NCBI RefSeq assembly: GCF_019972115.1
Contig: NZ_BPFJ01000001.1
Coordinates: 558,001 to 622,000 of the forward strand
Reading direction: 5' to 3'
DNA: 64,000 nt
Source: Sulfurovum sp. TSL6
GTDB lineage: Bacteria > Campylobacterota > Campylobacteria > Campylobacterales > Sulfurovaceae
The position numbers were made by a program, and so were the translations under genes. Each line of letters starts with the position of its first letter. Within the stretch, counting starts at the first letter, position 1. A model generated the notes under the pieces. The model was not told the DNA's origin. It saw nothing but the letters and a program-made list of their open reading frames with translations, and made no database searches. Of this stretch, positions 1 to 6,053 are shown piece by piece.

Positions 1-1755
1 TTGCCGGCACATGGACCGGATGCTGAGACTGGTCAACAATCGCAAAGCCTTTTTCCTTATTTCGGGGTAGGTATGTTGAAAGAAGCAGGGGTGGTCGACG
101 TTAAGGTGGATACTGCAACAAAGAATGTCTATTTTTCTGATCACTTTGCAGGATTGATGGTGATCGGCAATGCGGATAATCCTTCTACTTGGCATGGAAA
201 TAAAGGGGCGGGTTCATATGACAATGATACTATGGGTACACTGGGTGATCATTGGCCAGATTATGAGTTTGTCACATCCTATGATATGACTCCGTTTATC
301 CCTACAGGGAAAGAAGAAGAGATACCGACATTTATTACCGAAACACCAATTCTTCTAGCAACAGGTGAGGTGAGTGGTCATGGAAATGTCTTTGGCTTTA
401 CCAGTACATTTGATTCAGCTAACAACGTAGCTATAGATATAGCACTTGCAGCCGGAGGGGGCGGTCTTAACTTTATGGATGTTCTCATTACCGGTGCACA
501 GTCGAGCAACTCATTTGAGGTACCAGTTCATTTTGCAACTACTGATGAGATTGGTGCAGCAGCAGATGGTTCACCTACGCAAGAGATCAATATAGGTCAT
601 GCTGAGGGACTAACCGCTTATGACAATTTACTGTTCCTTGGTGATGGACCTCATGGTATGTCAGTATGGCAGATAGCGGATGAAGAGTGTAATCCGACAG
701 ATGATGTTCATTTGGTAGCCAATACACTACAGAGTGAATATCCAGTAGGTGATATTAACCCCGCACCACATGCACATGATGTAGTATTAGACCATGCTAC
801 AAATTCAGCTCTTGTAATGTCACAAAGTCGTGGGGTACGTCGTATTGAGAACGTAGCAGTGGGTACAGTCGGTGCCCCAGTTCTACTGTACCCAAAAAAT
901 ACGGATATATATGAGCATAATGTCGATGCCGGTAATGTCGCTGATTTCCTCAGTATGCAAGACCATGCATATAGTGCAGCACTGAAAGGGCCACTTGCAT
1001 TTACTGCTGATGGCAGTAACGGTTTAACGGTGTATGATTTAAGTAAAGATCCGACTGATTCAACCAACAGTAATGGTTTTGTAGTTGCCAATATCGGTGG
1101 AGATACCAACTCTCAACCAGATCTCGGCCGTGCATCTGATGTGGCACTTTGGGATGATACAAGTACAGGTACATCGTATGCTTTTGTTGCTGCAGGAAGC
1201 AGAGGTATCGCTGTAGTTGATATTACCAATGCGCAAGAAAACAATATGAGATTAGTTAAAATTTTCGAACCAATTAAATGGGAAGATACAAAGGCTGGTA
1301 AAGCCGATGGTAAAAGTGTGGCAGTTAAGGTAGTGGGTAATCATGCATTCTTTACCTATGATAGTTTTGGAGTCGTATGTTACAGTATCGCTGATCTGAT
1401 CGCACCACTGCCTGCGGGAGTAGATCCACAGGATATCTGGACACCGGGCACTGTCGGTTATCGTCCAGAAGCTACTGCACGCTTTAAGCTCCAAAACCGC
1501 GAAATGTTTGGTCGTGCTGAATTGGCAGAATGGAGTGGAGGTGCTGCAGGTATGGATGTTGTTAGTGTCAACGGTAGATATATTTTCTATATTGCCTATG
1601 GTGATGCTGGTGTTATCAAGATAAACTGGACAAATCCAGCCACACCAGTGCTTATGGAACATGCTGATACGGTAGGATTTGCAAGTGATGTGACTGTAAT
1701 TAACGGGCATGCTTATGTTGCAGATGGTGGCGGTGGATTGGTACTGCTTAAATAG
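1..1755 (+). CDS. LVIVD-repeat protein (5' end outside window)
   Basis: This is the 3' part of a large, probably exported or surface protein; 584 residues are visible and the frame is open to the window edge, so the true start lies upstream. The sequence has repeated beta-propeller-like blades ending in motifs such as GIAVVDITN, GLTVYDLSK and GLVLLK, each preceded by an HAY/YAFVA strand. This is the LVIVD-repeat pattern, usually found in extracellular propellers of unknown ligand. Several Gly/Asp-rich loops could bind metal. No catalytic motif is recognisable. The gene ends in TAG just before a stem-loop, and no downstream partner is linked to it. The LVIVD assignment is by motif only. Confidence 0.7.
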   Translation: MPAHGPDAETGQQSQSLFPYFGVGMLKEAGVVDVKVDTATKNVYFSDHFAGLMVIGNADNPSTWHGNKGAGSYDNDTMGTLGDHWPDYEFVTSYDMTPFIPTGKEEEIPTFITETPILLATGEVSGHGNVFGFTSTFDSANNVAIDIALAAGGGGLNFMDVLITGAQSSNSFEVPVHFATTDEIGAAADGSPTQEINIGHAEGLTAYDNLLFLGDGPHGMSVWQIADEECNPTDDVHLVANTLQSEYPVGDINPAPHAHDVVLDHATNSALVMSQSRGVRRIENVAVGTVGAPVLLYPKNTDIYEHNVDAGNVADFLSMQDHAYSAALKGPLAFTADGSNGLTVYDLSKDPTDSTNSNGFVVANIGGDTNSQPDLGRASDVALWDDTSTGTSYAFVAAGSRGIAVVDITNAQENNMRLVKIFEPIKWEDTKAGKADGKSVAVKVVGNHAFFTYDSFGVVCYSIADLIAPLPAGVDPQDIWTPGTVGYRPEATARFKLQNREMFGRAELAEWSGGAAGMDVVSVNGRYIFYIAYGDAGVIKINWTNPATPVLMEHADTVGFASDVTVINGHAYVADGGGGLVLLK

Positions 1756-2300: not shown

Positions 2301-2405
2301 CATATCATAATATGGTAATTAGATTAACTACTTAATAAGAGACTTATTTTACTTTAAGTAATAATATGAGATTATATAAAAGTATAAATATAAATCCCGC
2401 TATTC

Positions 2406-2441
2406 AATTAGTCTGTTCTAATTTATACAAATTTTGTATAA
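2406..2441 (+). promoter_or_regulatory. Two adjacent inverted repeats before the peptide gene
   Basis: AATTAG/CTAATT (2406-2423) is followed directly by the perfect 19-nt palindrome TTATACAAATTTTGTATAA (2423-2441). The right end of the palindrome touches the ribosome binding site AAGGGG (2440-2445) of the small peptide gene. It could be a repressor operator or an RNA hairpin that limits access to the ribosome binding site. The symmetry is seen directly; the role is inference. Confidence 0.5.
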
Positions 2442-2451
2442 GGGGTATATT

Positions 2452-2721
2452 ATGTCTAATAAATTAAACAAAAAGACAGAAACCGATGTAACTATTGATT
2501 TAGAAAAACGTAAGTTTATCGGTAAGTGTGGAAAGTACGCAGTAGGTGCAGGTATGGCAACATTAATGATGCCAACAGTTTCTTCTGCCATATCTTCATG
2601 TAATAATGGTTGGGGTAACGGTGATCAATGTGCGCCTGGTAATTCTCTTCCAAACAATAATGCAGAGAATAATACTTTTGGGACTACTCAGCAAAATTTT
2701 GGTGATCCAAACCCGAACTAA
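2452..2721 (+). CDS. Small peptide with Tat-like leader; candidate substrate of the kinase/NTase cassette
   Basis: This encodes 89 residues. The ATG at 2452 is chosen because AAGGGG lies 6 nt upstream; an in-frame TTG at 2434 has no ribosome binding site. Residues about 1-18 are charged and polar. Then KRKFIGK, a Tat-like motif with KR in place of RR, leads into a small-residue hydrophobic segment ending SSA, a plausible signal-peptidase site. The remaining ~40 residues are rich in Asn, Gly, Pro and Gln, with two cysteines (SSCNNGWGNGDQC) and an NFGDPNPN tail. No known family is recognised. A terminator-like hairpin separates it from the downstream PqqD/kinase and nucleotidyltransferase genes. 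That is the arrangement expected for a highly expressed precursor followed by its modifying enzymes, so a modified exported peptide is the working hypothesis. It could equally be a small structural Tat substrate. Confidence 0.65.
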   Translation: MSNKLNKKTETDVTIDLEKRKFIGKCGKYAVGAGMATLMMPTVSSAISSCNNGWGNGDQCAPGNSLPNNNAENNTFGTTQQNFGDPNPN

Positions 2722-2728
2722 AATATCT

Positions 2729-2766
2729 AAAAACCATATCAGTCCAAGACTGACTATGGTTTTTTA
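2729..2766 (+). terminator. Intrinsic terminator/attenuator between peptide and kinase genes
   Basis: AAAAACCATA-T-CAGTC pairs with GACTG-AC-TATGGTTTTTT across a 3-nt loop, giving about 14 bp with a small bulge and ending in six T residues. It starts 7 nt after the peptide stop codon. Partial read-through would give a high peptide-to-enzyme ratio. Confidence 0.75.
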
Positions 2767-2836
2767 CGCAACATAAATCAAGTAAAATTGATAAATATTT
2801 TTCTCCTTCTTAATTTTCTGAAAATATGGATAATGT

Positions 2837-3979
2837 ATGATTAAAAAGCATGATACTACAAAACTGCTACTGAATTCTAAAAAACTACATGCATTTGCCA
2901 TAGAGGAGAGCCTGTTTGTATATTCTGATGAGACTCAAAATGTTTATGGATTTGAAAAAGGTAGCGCTGCACTGTTTCTACAGATAGATGAACTGATACC
3001 TCATTATACGGTAGAAGAAATCGCTAAGAAGTTTCTGGATGTAGATACTGATTTAGTGCAACAAATGTGTGATCTTACTTCAGGAAAAGAAACAGCTGTT
3101 GAAGTAGAGTATGAATCCGATATTGAATTTGGAACATATATTAATGATGATTTGATTAGAAAACATTATCAGGTAGATGACATTGTATATGCTATACATT
3201 ACCCTAATGATATGTTTTATAAGCGACTACACCCTGTGTTTGAATACCTTTATGTAGATAACCCTGAGGGGAAGCATATTGTATCAGTTGACTTTTGCAA
3301 ATCCGATGACCTGTGGGAAGTCCACTGGAACAATACTCCTCTAGGGATGGCCATGCCTGAAAAGAAGTTAGCTACTTTTCTTCAGGAAAAGATGATGATA
3401 TGTACTTACCAGTCAAAACGCTATCTTATTGCTTTGCATGCAGGGGCTGTAGAAAAAAATGGCAATGTAATCATCATGCCAGCAGTGTCAGAATCAGGTA
3501 AAACAACATTAACTGCGACATTGCTTTACCATGGATTCCACCTTTTTAGTGATGAAGTTACTACACTGGATTATAATGGCTTTGTTCTTCCTCTGCCTTT
3601 TTGCATGAATATCAAAGAAGGCAGTTGGAAGATACTCTCAGAGATGTATCCTTACCTTATAGATGGTGATAAATACAGTCGATTTGATGGGCAGAATATC
3701 CGTTTCATTCCTCCTGTAAATATGTACTTGGGGCGGCAAAAAGCCAGTCACATTATTTTTCCAAAATACATACCTAATTCAGAAACTACCCTTACAGAAA
3801 TTGGTGCAAAAGATGCTCTTGAAAAAATTAAAGATGCTGGTTATCAGGTTCAGGAAAATATGGATAGAGAGAAATTTGAATTGATCTTAAAGTATCTTGT
3901 TTCTCTACCAAAGTATACGTTAGTTTATTCAAATTTAGATGAAGCCATAGACATGATTAATACATTGCTGGAAATGTAA
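2837..3979 (+). CDS. PqqD-like domain fused to HPr kinase-like domain
   Basis: This is a 380-residue protein. Residues about 8-80 look like a PqqD/RRE peptide-recognition fold (VYGFEKGSAALFLQID, then TVEEIAKKF). From about residue 195 it resembles HPr kinase-like (HprK-related) proteins: LHAGAV corresponds to the HxxG catalytic region and VSESGKTT to the P-loop, followed by FSDEVTTLD. The usual first Gly of the P-loop is Ala here. Related kinases phosphorylate the C-terminus of lasso peptides (paeninodin type), and PqqD-related plus HprK-related genes form a set I recall as the HPr-rel-A system. Here both functions sit in one chain. The stop codon overlaps the start of the next gene (TAATG), so the two are translationally coupled. 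Peptide phosphorylation is inferred, not shown. Confidence 0.75.
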   Translation: MIKKHDTTKLLLNSKKLHAFAIEESLFVYSDETQNVYGFEKGSAALFLQIDELIPHYTVEEIAKKFLDVDTDLVQQMCDLTSGKETAVEVEYESDIEFGTYINDDLIRKHYQVDDIVYAIHYPNDMFYKRLHPVFEYLYVDNPEGKHIVSVDFCKSDDLWEVHWNNTPLGMAMPEKKLATFLQEKMMICTYQSKRYLIALHAGAVEKNGNVIIMPAVSESGKTTLTATLLYHGFHLFSDEVTTLDYNGFVLPLPFCMNIKEGSWKILSEMYPYLIDGDKYSRFDGQNIRFIPPVNMYLGRQKASHIIFPKYIPNSETTLTEIGAKDALEKIKDAGYQVQENMDREKFELILKYLVSLPKYTLVYSNLDEAIDMINTLLEM

Positions 3980-5094
3980 TGTTAGCTAATACAAATATTA
4001 GAATAGAAAGTCTGATTACACTATGTGAAATTATCTCACTGTCTGGGGATAAAGAAAAAATCAAGCAAAAAATCCTCTCTGATTCTATAGACTGGCTATG
4101 TGTTATTGAAATTGCCAATAGATATTTTCTTACCGCAGCACTTTATTACAGTCTCTTGGATCAAGATATGTTAAAATTTATAAATGATGAAGAGTTGTTA
4201 GCCTATTTGGAACAAATATATACCATTAACTTACATAGAAATCAAAGTATTATCGAACAATCAAAAGAGATTACGCAAATTTTATTGAAAAAAGGTATTA
4301 AACCCGTATTTTTAAAAGGTACTGCCTCTCTATTACAAAAAGATTATAAAGATGAGGGAATGCGATTTTTATCAGATATTGACTTTTGTGTTTTTGAAAA
4401 AGACTTTCTACAGACAAAAAAGCAGTTACTTTCTTTTGGATATATACCTAATATGAATGATCCAGGAATTAAAGATATTGAAAAACATCATCACTGGTGG
4501 CCTATGTATCATCCAAATTGGGAAGTGAGTATAGAAACACATAGGTCTATTTTGACATATCCTTACTCTCACTTAATTGAGTGTAAGGATGACAATTGTC
4601 AAAATGCTACTTATTATCCTAATATGACTATTCTTTCACCGACTTTTCGTTTGATCCATACATATATACATAGTGATATAGTTGATAGAAGTTATGCATT
4701 TAAGACAATGGATCTACGCCAATTGTATGAAATGTCTAGAGTCATTGATAAGTATAGATCAGAAATAGATTGGAGATATATAGAAGAATTTTTTAAAACA
4801 CATAATATTTTGAGTAGATTTAATAATAGACTTTATCTTATTAAAATACTTTTCAAAGTGCATTCACCTATATTAATAGAGAATAGAAAGTGTAAATTAC
4901 ATTTATCTGTACTCTTTATATTTTTTAAATATCCCCATACATTTATAATCAATAAATATAGGAATTTTCAACTTTTGCGTTTTAAGCTATCTTATAGGAA
5001 AATACGTCAGCGATATGGTGTATCAACCAAAACGGAATATATTTATTATGCATCTAAGATATTGAGAAATCATATTTTTGCAAAATTAAGGTAA
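3979..5094 (+). CDS. Nucleotidyltransferase family protein (NTP_transf_5-like)
   Basis: This is a 371-residue protein whose start overlaps the kinase stop codon by one base. Residues about 110-145 carry the family signature: KPVFLKGTASLL followed by RFLSDIDFCVF, where DID supplies the metal-binding acidic pair of the polymerase-beta-like fold. A HHHWWPMYH segment and ETHRSIL follow. Members of this family often sit beside HprK-like kinases in peptide-maturation clusters, including lasso peptide loci, with a poorly defined role. The C-terminal ~100 residues are very AT-rich and basic. It probably transfers a nucleotide or other group to the peptide or to the kinase product; the substrate is unknown. 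Confidence 0.75.
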   Translation: MLANTNIRIESLITLCEIISLSGDKEKIKQKILSDSIDWLCVIEIANRYFLTAALYYSLLDQDMLKFINDEELLAYLEQIYTINLHRNQSIIEQSKEITQILLKKGIKPVFLKGTASLLQKDYKDEGMRFLSDIDFCVFEKDFLQTKKQLLSFGYIPNMNDPGIKDIEKHHHWWPMYHPNWEVSIETHRSILTYPYSHLIECKDDNCQNATYYPNMTILSPTFRLIHTYIHSDIVDRSYAFKTMDLRQLYEMSRVIDKYRSEIDWRYIEEFFKTHNILSRFNNRLYLIKILFKVHSPILIENRKCKLHLSVLFIFFKYPHTFIINKYRNFQLLRFKLSYRKIRQRYGVSTKTEYIYYASKILRNHIFAKLR

Positions 5095-5285
5095 TAGAGA
5101 AATCTATTTATTCTATTTTTAAATAATAAAAAATCTAGAAACTACTTTTACTTTTTAGTTTATGCATAAATACATTAGAGATGAACAGGTCAGTAATACA
5201 ACGTTTTTTATAAAAAGTATCTAAAGTATTCCAAGTCGCAGTCAATTTTAATCATGATAAACTACGCTTAAAAAGGACCCTCTGT

Positions 5286-6053
5286 ATGCAAGATAAATAT
5301 GTAGCAGATGTTGGGGACTTTGGAAAGTTCCAGCTTTTTCGTTATCTTTTCAACCATAATGAGAGTCCTATGCATGGAAAAGCACTTGCGCAGATATGGT
5401 ATATGCATGAAGGTGAGGGTGAAGAGAACAACGATGGACGTCATATCGACTATTTTGAACGGGTTATGGGCAGTGATGTATATCTGGAAGAATCACTACA
5501 AAGCCTCATCATGGGAGAGAAACGTAAAGTGACATCACTAGAATCGTTAAAACTTCTTCAAAATGCAAAGTTTTTTTATGAAAAAGTACCTGGCTCTTTA
5601 GAAGAGCGTTATCATTGGTTCAAGAGGGCCCTCACATTTTCACACAAAGCGCAAGTCGTTGCTGTGGCACCGGATAATGGCATGGCACTCAAGTGTAATA
5701 GGGGAGCACAATGTTTTGATTTTCTTACACTGGAACAGGACTACACACAAAAACACTATCCGCATAAATATATTTTTGCCGAGGAAGTAAGTCATTTTTA
5801 TCGGTTACCGCATTTGGAAGTGTGTATCGTCTACCAGCATTTGAACCGCTGTTTTGCACATAATGGGCAGATAGAGTCACTCTTAAGTGATTTGAAAAAA
5901 GAGTATTTTCATGTGATAGCGATAAAACACAAGCCATACTCACCACGTGCTTTTTTCTTCTTATGCAAATCAGAAGTGATCAAAGAGAGTCTAGCAATGA
6001 GACTTGAGAGGTTTGTAAAGGATTTTACTGAATTTTGGGAACTCTTTAGATAG
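5286..6053 (+). CDS. Conserved protein of unknown function with PDNG motif
   Basis: This is a 255-residue soluble protein starting MQDKYVADVGDFGKFQ. It belongs to a family I recall as widespread hypothetical proteins with a KY-x-x-D-x-GDFGK-x-x-LLR start, a central D-P-D-N-G motif (here APDNGMAL) and a V-x-YQHL-x-R motif (here CIVYQHLNR). The fold may be Rossmann-like and methyltransferase-related, but no cofactor motif is certain. The ATG is preceded by AAAAGGAC. A broken 5' copy with the same leader lies at 2017. Its 3' end overlaps the convergent diguanylate cyclase gene by 8 bp. Function is unknown. Confidence 0.7.
   Translation: MQDKYVADVGDFGKFQLFRYLFNHNESPMHGKALAQIWYMHEGEGEENNDGRHIDYFERVMGSDVYLEESLQSLIMGEKRKVTSLESLKLLQNAKFFYEKVPGSLEERYHWFKRALTFSHKAQVVAVAPDNGMALKCNRGAQCFDFLTLEQDYTQKHYPHKYIFAEEVSHFYRLPHLEVCIVYQHLNRCFAHNGQIESLLSDLKKEYFHVIAIKHKPYSPRAFFFLCKSEVIKESLAMRLERFVKDFTEFWELFR

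Follow-up and report, generated by a model that had tools for sequence, protein, structure and literature searches.

Three consecutive genes of the window, a stretch of 64,000 nucleotides from Sulfurovum sp. TSL6, appear to form a cassette producing a phosphorylated, secreted peptide, i.e. an LPP-like RiPP whose leader probably doubles as a Tat signal peptide. They encode a small precursor, a kinase with a PqqD-like N-terminus and a nucleotidyltransferase-fold protein of the NTP_transf_5 family. Modification of the peptide is inferred from gene association and published precedent, without biochemical evidence; its binding and export are likewise inferred. The initial annotation had delimited three open reading frames, all confirmed with their coordinates (Table 1), and had read them as a peptide-modification cassette with the peptide as likely substrate. 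This reading held, on the basis of gene association and genome-by-genome co-occurrence.

Table 1. Features of the cassette, in positions of the window
Feature	Coordinates	Strand	Length	Basis or remark
Conserved 5' region and ribosome-binding site of the peptide gene	2379..2451	+		Comparison with L012 and L013
Precursor peptide gene (start codon ATG 2452)	2452..2721	+	89 aa	Leader conserved in 22 loci, variable tail
Mature peptide, predicted (ISSCNNGWGNGDQCAPGNSLPNNNAENN...)	2590..2718	+		AxA-type site
Stem-loop then T-run, between precursor and enzyme genes	2729..2764	+		dG -16.7, z -6.2
PqqD(RRE)-HprK fusion kinase	2837..3979	+	380 aa	Profile matches, fold model, homology
NTP_transf_5 nucleotidyltransferase-fold protein	3979..5094	+	371 aa	PF14907, fold match

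Co-occurrence of the peptide and the enzymes

A small peptide with a Tat-type leader was found beside the kinase in all 22 loci containing a full-length kinase, eight in Campylobacterota and 14 on alphaproteobacterial plasmids. Within Campylobacterota, where such loci occur in Hydrogenimonas and in relatives belonging to the window's own genus, the peptide is present in 8/8. The alphaproteobacterial fusions, reached by tblastn of plasmids with the kinase, were detected in Ensifer, Sinorhizobium, Rhizobium (including Rhizobium tropici CIAT 899), Novosphingobium, Parasedimentitalea, Leisingera and Methylobacterium; the small Tat-leader ORF adjoins in each of the 14 loci with kinase and NTP_transf_5. 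Gene orders and orientations differ among the 22 loci over the two phyla. NTP_transf_5 adjoins the kinase in the full-length-kinase loci except L012, whose contig stops within the stretch that the gene would occupy. Gene order, conservation and co-occurrence are shown directly by these comparisons, and the link between peptide and enzymes, only inferred in the initial annotation, survived the check for homologous clusters without the peptide (0/22).

The relationship between the leaders of the two phyla was evaluated by HMM searches. Out of 843 ORFs, a model built on alphaproteobacterial leaders only placed the window peptide and its seven Campylobacterota relatives in the first eight ranks, and the ninth ORF had an E value of 0.7; in the reverse search, the Campylobacterota model ranked 13 of the 14 alphaproteobacterial peptides as the top 13 of 1482 ORFs (next E 1.4). 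This reciprocal ranking supports a likeness beyond chance. A background count of Tat-like ORFs by regular expression gave zero matches, the pattern being too strict even for known members, and HMMs were used instead. When whole Campylobacterota genomes were scanned with the leader profile, strong matches were found only in G000, G006, G009, G039 and G192, exactly the Campylobacterota genomes with a full-length kinase.

Outside Campylobacterota only plasmids were sampled, and close kinship among several of the rhizobial loci means that the 22 loci correspond to fewer independent events. Near a related kinase of Methylosinus (L038), neither NTP_transf_5 nor the peptide was found.

The precursor peptide

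The 5' region of the gene is near-identical in L012 and L013, the two nearest relatives (CCGCTATTNAATTAGTCTGTT ... AAGGRTATAT-ATG). In the peptide, KR occupies residues 19-20; a hydrophobic stretch, the site SSA|ISSC and a tail rich in Asn and Gly come next. The leader, or Tat-like signal, spans residues 1-46 (KRKFIGKCGKYA...SSA) and the mature part is predicted to start at residue 47. Features common to the leaders of the family are D/E-rich residues, the motifs [KR]R-x-F and G-[KR]-[FY]-A, a hydrophobic run, which includes TPP in most alphaproteobacteria, and an AxA site. A Ser is located at +1 to +3 past the AxA cut, itself a prediction, in 22/22 peptides, that of L039 having been assigned by eye. 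The candidate phospho-Ser of the window peptide is residue 48 or 49, a position at which most relatives have S-G.

An Asn/Gly/Cys-rich tail, pointed out in the initial annotation, is present in the window peptide, but the family as a whole does not share it: other members carry His-Gly repeats, Lys-Arg runs or Gly-Ser runs. A further tail type, the motif NNG[WY]GNG, is common to the window peptide (CNNGWGNGDQCAPGNS) and to rhizobial ones (R. tropici GNNGYGNGGDDGVPGNS), and extends to D..PGNS in R. tropici. Precursors of the Hydrogenimonas type with His-Gly repeat tails are located at L014:2035-2259, L016:6741-6959 and L037:9383-9583; judging from sequence alone, these repeats could possibly bind metals. 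The tail of the L016 precursor gives a weak match to HxsA4.

The KR-type Tat-like leader described in the initial annotation was confirmed. The window peptide carries the motif in its KR form, with a hydrophobic region and an A-type site, and TatC is shown to be encoded in the same genome. Campylobacterota members have KR in place of RR throughout, and Tat HMMs do not match the window peptide. All 14 alphaproteobacterial relatives have RR in a Tat-like context (RRxFL/RRxxL) together with AxA sites, and two of them give weak Tat/formate_TAT matches. Export through Tat is inferred, in the absence of export data, and is to be considered probable, not certain, because KR replaces RR.

The stem-loop located after the peptide gene has counterparts at the equivalent position in L012 and L013 (z -4.5 and -5.8, respectively), and changes occur on both arms among these three sequences. 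It is likely to be a partial terminator or attenuator, an inference drawn from the sequence only, and would fit a precursor made in excess of the enzymes.

The fusion kinase and the NTP_transf_5 protein

The kinase comprises a PqqD-like region, approximately at residues 8-81, and a HprK/PEPCK fold, approximately at residues 100-380; the end of its gene overlaps the start of NTP_transf_5 by one base. Residues 189-377 match TIGR04352 HprK_rel_A with 99 bits (E 2.5e-28), a score which falls below the curated cut-off of 200. The catalytic motifs are shown to be present: H201, the P-loop SESGKT with K222, D239-E240 and K260. H201, K222, D239 and E240 correspond to the His-Lys-Asp-Asp set of lasso kinases (PMC9266682), and most alphaproteobacterial kinases have D-D where the window kinase has D239-E240. 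In the model, the part C-terminal to the PqqD-like region adopts the HprK/PEPCK fold; the fold comparison covers residues 88-380 only, so that the N-terminal domain was left out.

The PqqD-like N-terminus of the window kinase has no Pfam match to PF05402 PqqD, even at E 10, and TIGR04353 does not match the fusion. Direct hhalign comparison of the Campylobacterota kinase N-termini with stand-alone PqqD proteins was too weak (E 0.078). In profile-profile comparison, the window kinase aligns with the alphaproteobacterial fusions over 353 columns, starting from residue 21 (E 9e-43), and these fusions in turn match stand-alone PqqD proteins at E 3.5e-6; PF05402 is matched by four of 14 family members (best 4.7e-9). 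The modelled N-terminus (pLDDT about 72-88) contains strands at residues 17-22, 25-30 and 36-40, and helices at 41-53, 59-65 and 71-81, i.e. three strands then three helices, as in the PqqD domain, a solved PqqD being outside the comparison. Fusion homology, the PqqD and PF05402 matches of relatives and the modelled N-terminus make it likely that the PqqD part is real, although divergent. The claim that PqqD and HprK are joined in one protein was upheld, as to the PqqD part only through relatives and model, and so was that of a coupled NTP_transf_5 gene after the kinase.

The third protein matches PF14907 NTP_transf_5 with 113.4 bits over residues 36-292 (gathering cut-off 31.2) and contains the motif LKGTAS...RFLSDIDF (D133, D135), conserved in relatives. 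Its model, of lower confidence (pLDDT 71), resembles ANT(2'')-Ia (Z 11.2) and the MenT nucleotidyltransferases MenT1/MenT3 (Z about 11). Searching the PDB by sequence with the kinase and the NTP_transf_5 protein yielded no useful match. A second NTP_transf_5 gene exists in the genome (L056:5810-7018, G000:C2), apparently in a polysaccharide region and without a kinase beside it.

Related systems and surroundings of the cassette

Weak HprK matches within Campylobacterota turned out to be split systems, made up of HprK, a stand-alone PqqD and sometimes NTP_transf_5. Many of them carry another class of Tat-leader peptide, class 2 (RRxFLKKAAYAAPxLIxLGxLxKP). In a held-out test, a search with the class-2 leader alone retrieved six new loci, four of which have a kinase next door; of the remaining two, one is cut by the contig end and one is an orphan (L075). 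A split system is present in the window's genome as well (L057, G000:C2:463000-476000), with a 64-aa Tat-leader peptide, a HprK-like kinase, a stand-alone PqqD, a 614-aa FG-GAP protein and a lipoprotein-like protein, and no NTP_transf_5. At the canonical HPr-rel-A locus of Sphingomonas, a 161-aa Tat-leader protein is encoded directly upstream. Tat-leader peptides may be a general partner of HprK-PqqD systems, a possibility resting on fewer loci than the main claim.

At L020, L021, L025 and L026, HprK and PqqD adjoin polysaccharide-export-like genes; a NTP_transf_5-like ORF is found in L020 and L026, a Tat-leader peptide in L021 and L026. Lasso-like clusters, with ABC transporter, transglutaminase-like B protein, HprK-like kinase and asparagine synthase, were also observed in Campylobacterota (L024, L030 and L033, Pfam having been run on L024 only).

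Positions 1963-2087 and 5232-5357 of the window form a direct repeat (79-86%). The first part of an unknown 255-aa gene (5286-6053) is duplicated upstream of the cassette as a decayed remnant; the cassette therefore lies between two copies, which are possibly the trace of its insertion. Another recurrent neighbour of these cassettes is a gene for a large secreted protein of beta-propeller type (LVIVD, cytochrome-D1-like, FG-GAP/cadherin), as at window 1-1755, L036:9788-11035, L057:7431-9275 and L053:1-2855; L012 and L013 have none.

Proposed mechanism and alternative explanations

In the proposed mechanism, the 89-aa precursor would be made in excess of the enzymes, because the stem-loop past its gene would limit read-through. 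The PqqD-like domain would bind the leader (D-x-x-K/R-R-x-F-x-x-x-x-G-K-F/Y-A), and the HprK-type domain would phosphorylate the Ser just past the future cleavage site; both binding and phosphorylation are inferred. NTP_transf_5 may then add a second group to the phosphoserine; this could be a hexose, by analogy with PsmN in pseudomycoidin, or else a nucleotide. This capping, inferred as well and with a chemistry that is a guess, is the weakest step, since LppN showed no detectable activity in the LPP study (PMC13381572). Finally, export of the modified precursor would take place via Tat, with the leader as signal peptide, and signal peptidase I would cut the leader off, so that no dedicated exporter or peptidase would be needed. 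As for the product, a role in the envelope or the extracellular matrix is the best, if tentative, guess, because some relatives adjoin polysaccharide-export or large beta-propeller surface-protein genes.

A bolder reading is slightly favored by the available data. The cassette would define a RiPP class in which a single leader is both RRE handle and Tat export signal, with phosphorylation (and capping) of the peptide in the cytoplasm before its export by the housekeeping Tat machinery, and HprK-PqqD ('HPr-rel-A'-type) systems in Campylobacterota and Pseudomonadota would generally have Tat-leader peptides as their substrates.

The alternative which survives best, although unlikely, is that the same modified peptide has a merely Tat-like RiPP leader, and leaves by Sec or remains membrane-bound. 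KR throughout Campylobacterota and the silence of Tat HMMs on the window peptide are in its favor; against it stand the RR motifs and AxA sites of the 14 alphaproteobacterial relatives, the weak Tat/formate_TAT matches of two of them, and the lack of an adjacent exporter or dedicated peptidase gene.

It is much less plausible that kinase and NTP_transf_5 modify another target, such as a sugar or an envelope protein, the peptide being a co-regulated secreted partner. HprK relatives can act on proteins, and several of the relatives lie in polysaccharide-export neighbourhoods. However, PqqD/RRE domains are established binders of peptide leaders, the co-occurrence with the leader is strict across phyla despite variable tails, and the Ser position matches that of LPP. 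Less probable still is a toxin-antitoxin or resistance module, with a MenT- or ANT-like nucleotidyltransferase and the small ORF as its partner. The fold matches to ANT(2'')-Ia and MenT1/MenT3 speak for it, but many nucleotidyltransferases have this fold, a signal sequence and a variable, disordered-looking tail characterize the small protein, and the kinase and PqqD parts would be left unexplained. That an ordinary small secreted protein merely happens to lie next to two enzymes, an idea with only the general frequency of small ORFs in its favor, is practically ruled out by the survey, in which the association held in 22/22 loci from two phyla, with differing gene orders and orientations.

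Under the preferred reading, a modified peptide exported via Tat, the widespread kinase/PqqD/nucleotidyltransferase set gains a candidate substrate; in the records examined, its peptide partner bears no annotation beyond hypothetical protein. Phosphorylated linear RiPPs would extend from Bacillota to two Gram-negative phyla. If the reading is true, one leader serves both enzyme recognition and export, and the Tat pathway carries enzymatically modified small peptides, akin to the cofactor-loaded proteins already known.

Comparison with known systems

LPP (Popov et al., Nat Commun 2026, PMC13381572) are reported to be confined to Bacillota and involve an RRE, a HprK kinase, a NTP transferase, a SipW-like peptidase and an exporter; LppK attaches phosphates to Ser3 in the core of a linear RiPP, there is no cyclase, and activity of LppN was not detected. 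The window cassette shares with them an RRE, a HprK-like kinase (as judged by TIGR04352 and fold), a NTP transferase gene (PF14907, a family not established as that of LppN), the absence of a cyclase, a linear precursor with conserved leader and variable tail, and a Ser few residues past the leader cut, phosphorylated in LPP and past a predicted cut here. Patchy distribution, and a polysaccharide-locus context in some members, are also common to both. In contrast, the leader is here Tat-like (DLEKRKFIGKCGKYAVGAGMATLMMPTVSSA) instead of YxxPxVLxHQxIxFETxxS, the RRE is fused to the kinase, without a small RRE ORF standing apart between neighbours, Pfam detected neither a SipW-like peptidase nor a MsbA-like transporter in the neighbouring genes scanned, and the family is found in Campylobacterota and Alphaproteobacteria. 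As the cassette failed the tests for a discrete RRE, the leader motif, the peptidase and the exporter, it is described as LPP-like and is not filed as an LPP member.

Lasso-peptide HprK-like kinases (poly)phosphorylate Ser by using His-Lys-Asp-Asp residues; the phosphorylated Ser receives one or two hexoses from PsmN, whose annotation is that of a nucleotidyltransferase (PMC9266682). The precedent of the two enzymes as lasso tailoring partners, mentioned in the initial annotation, held. Paeninodin and pseudomycoidin resemble the window cassette in this enzyme pair and in having a precursor Ser as target; they differ in that the lasso Ser is C-terminal, while the candidate Ser lies here at the mature N-terminus. 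No asparagine-synthetase-like cyclase, B2 peptidase or transporter was found in the neighbouring genes scanned, as the initial annotation had stated, and with neither cyclase nor B2 peptidase a lasso peptide reading was set aside.

The NCBIfam 'HPr-rel-A system' (TIGR04352 HprK-related kinase A, TIGR04353 PqqD) has a homologous kinase with PqqD and nucleotidyltransferase; the window kinase differs in its sub-threshold TIGR04352 score, in having PqqD fused, not separate, and in not matching TIGR04353. SynChlorMet ScmC/ScmD are likewise a HprK-like and PqqD-like pair associated with a peptide, but the similarity of the window kinase is weak (E 0.098).

HprK with PqqD and Tat with RiPP is a combination undescribed in the open-access literature searched. 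The suggestion that the combination is new holds in part, since RRE, HprK kinase and NTP transferase acting on a linear peptide were already published (PMC13381572). The kinase and NTP chemistry has precedent; what looks new is a leader of Tat type, the fusion of RRE and kinase, the occurrence across Campylobacterota and Pseudomonadota and the likely 'HPr-rel-A' substrate.
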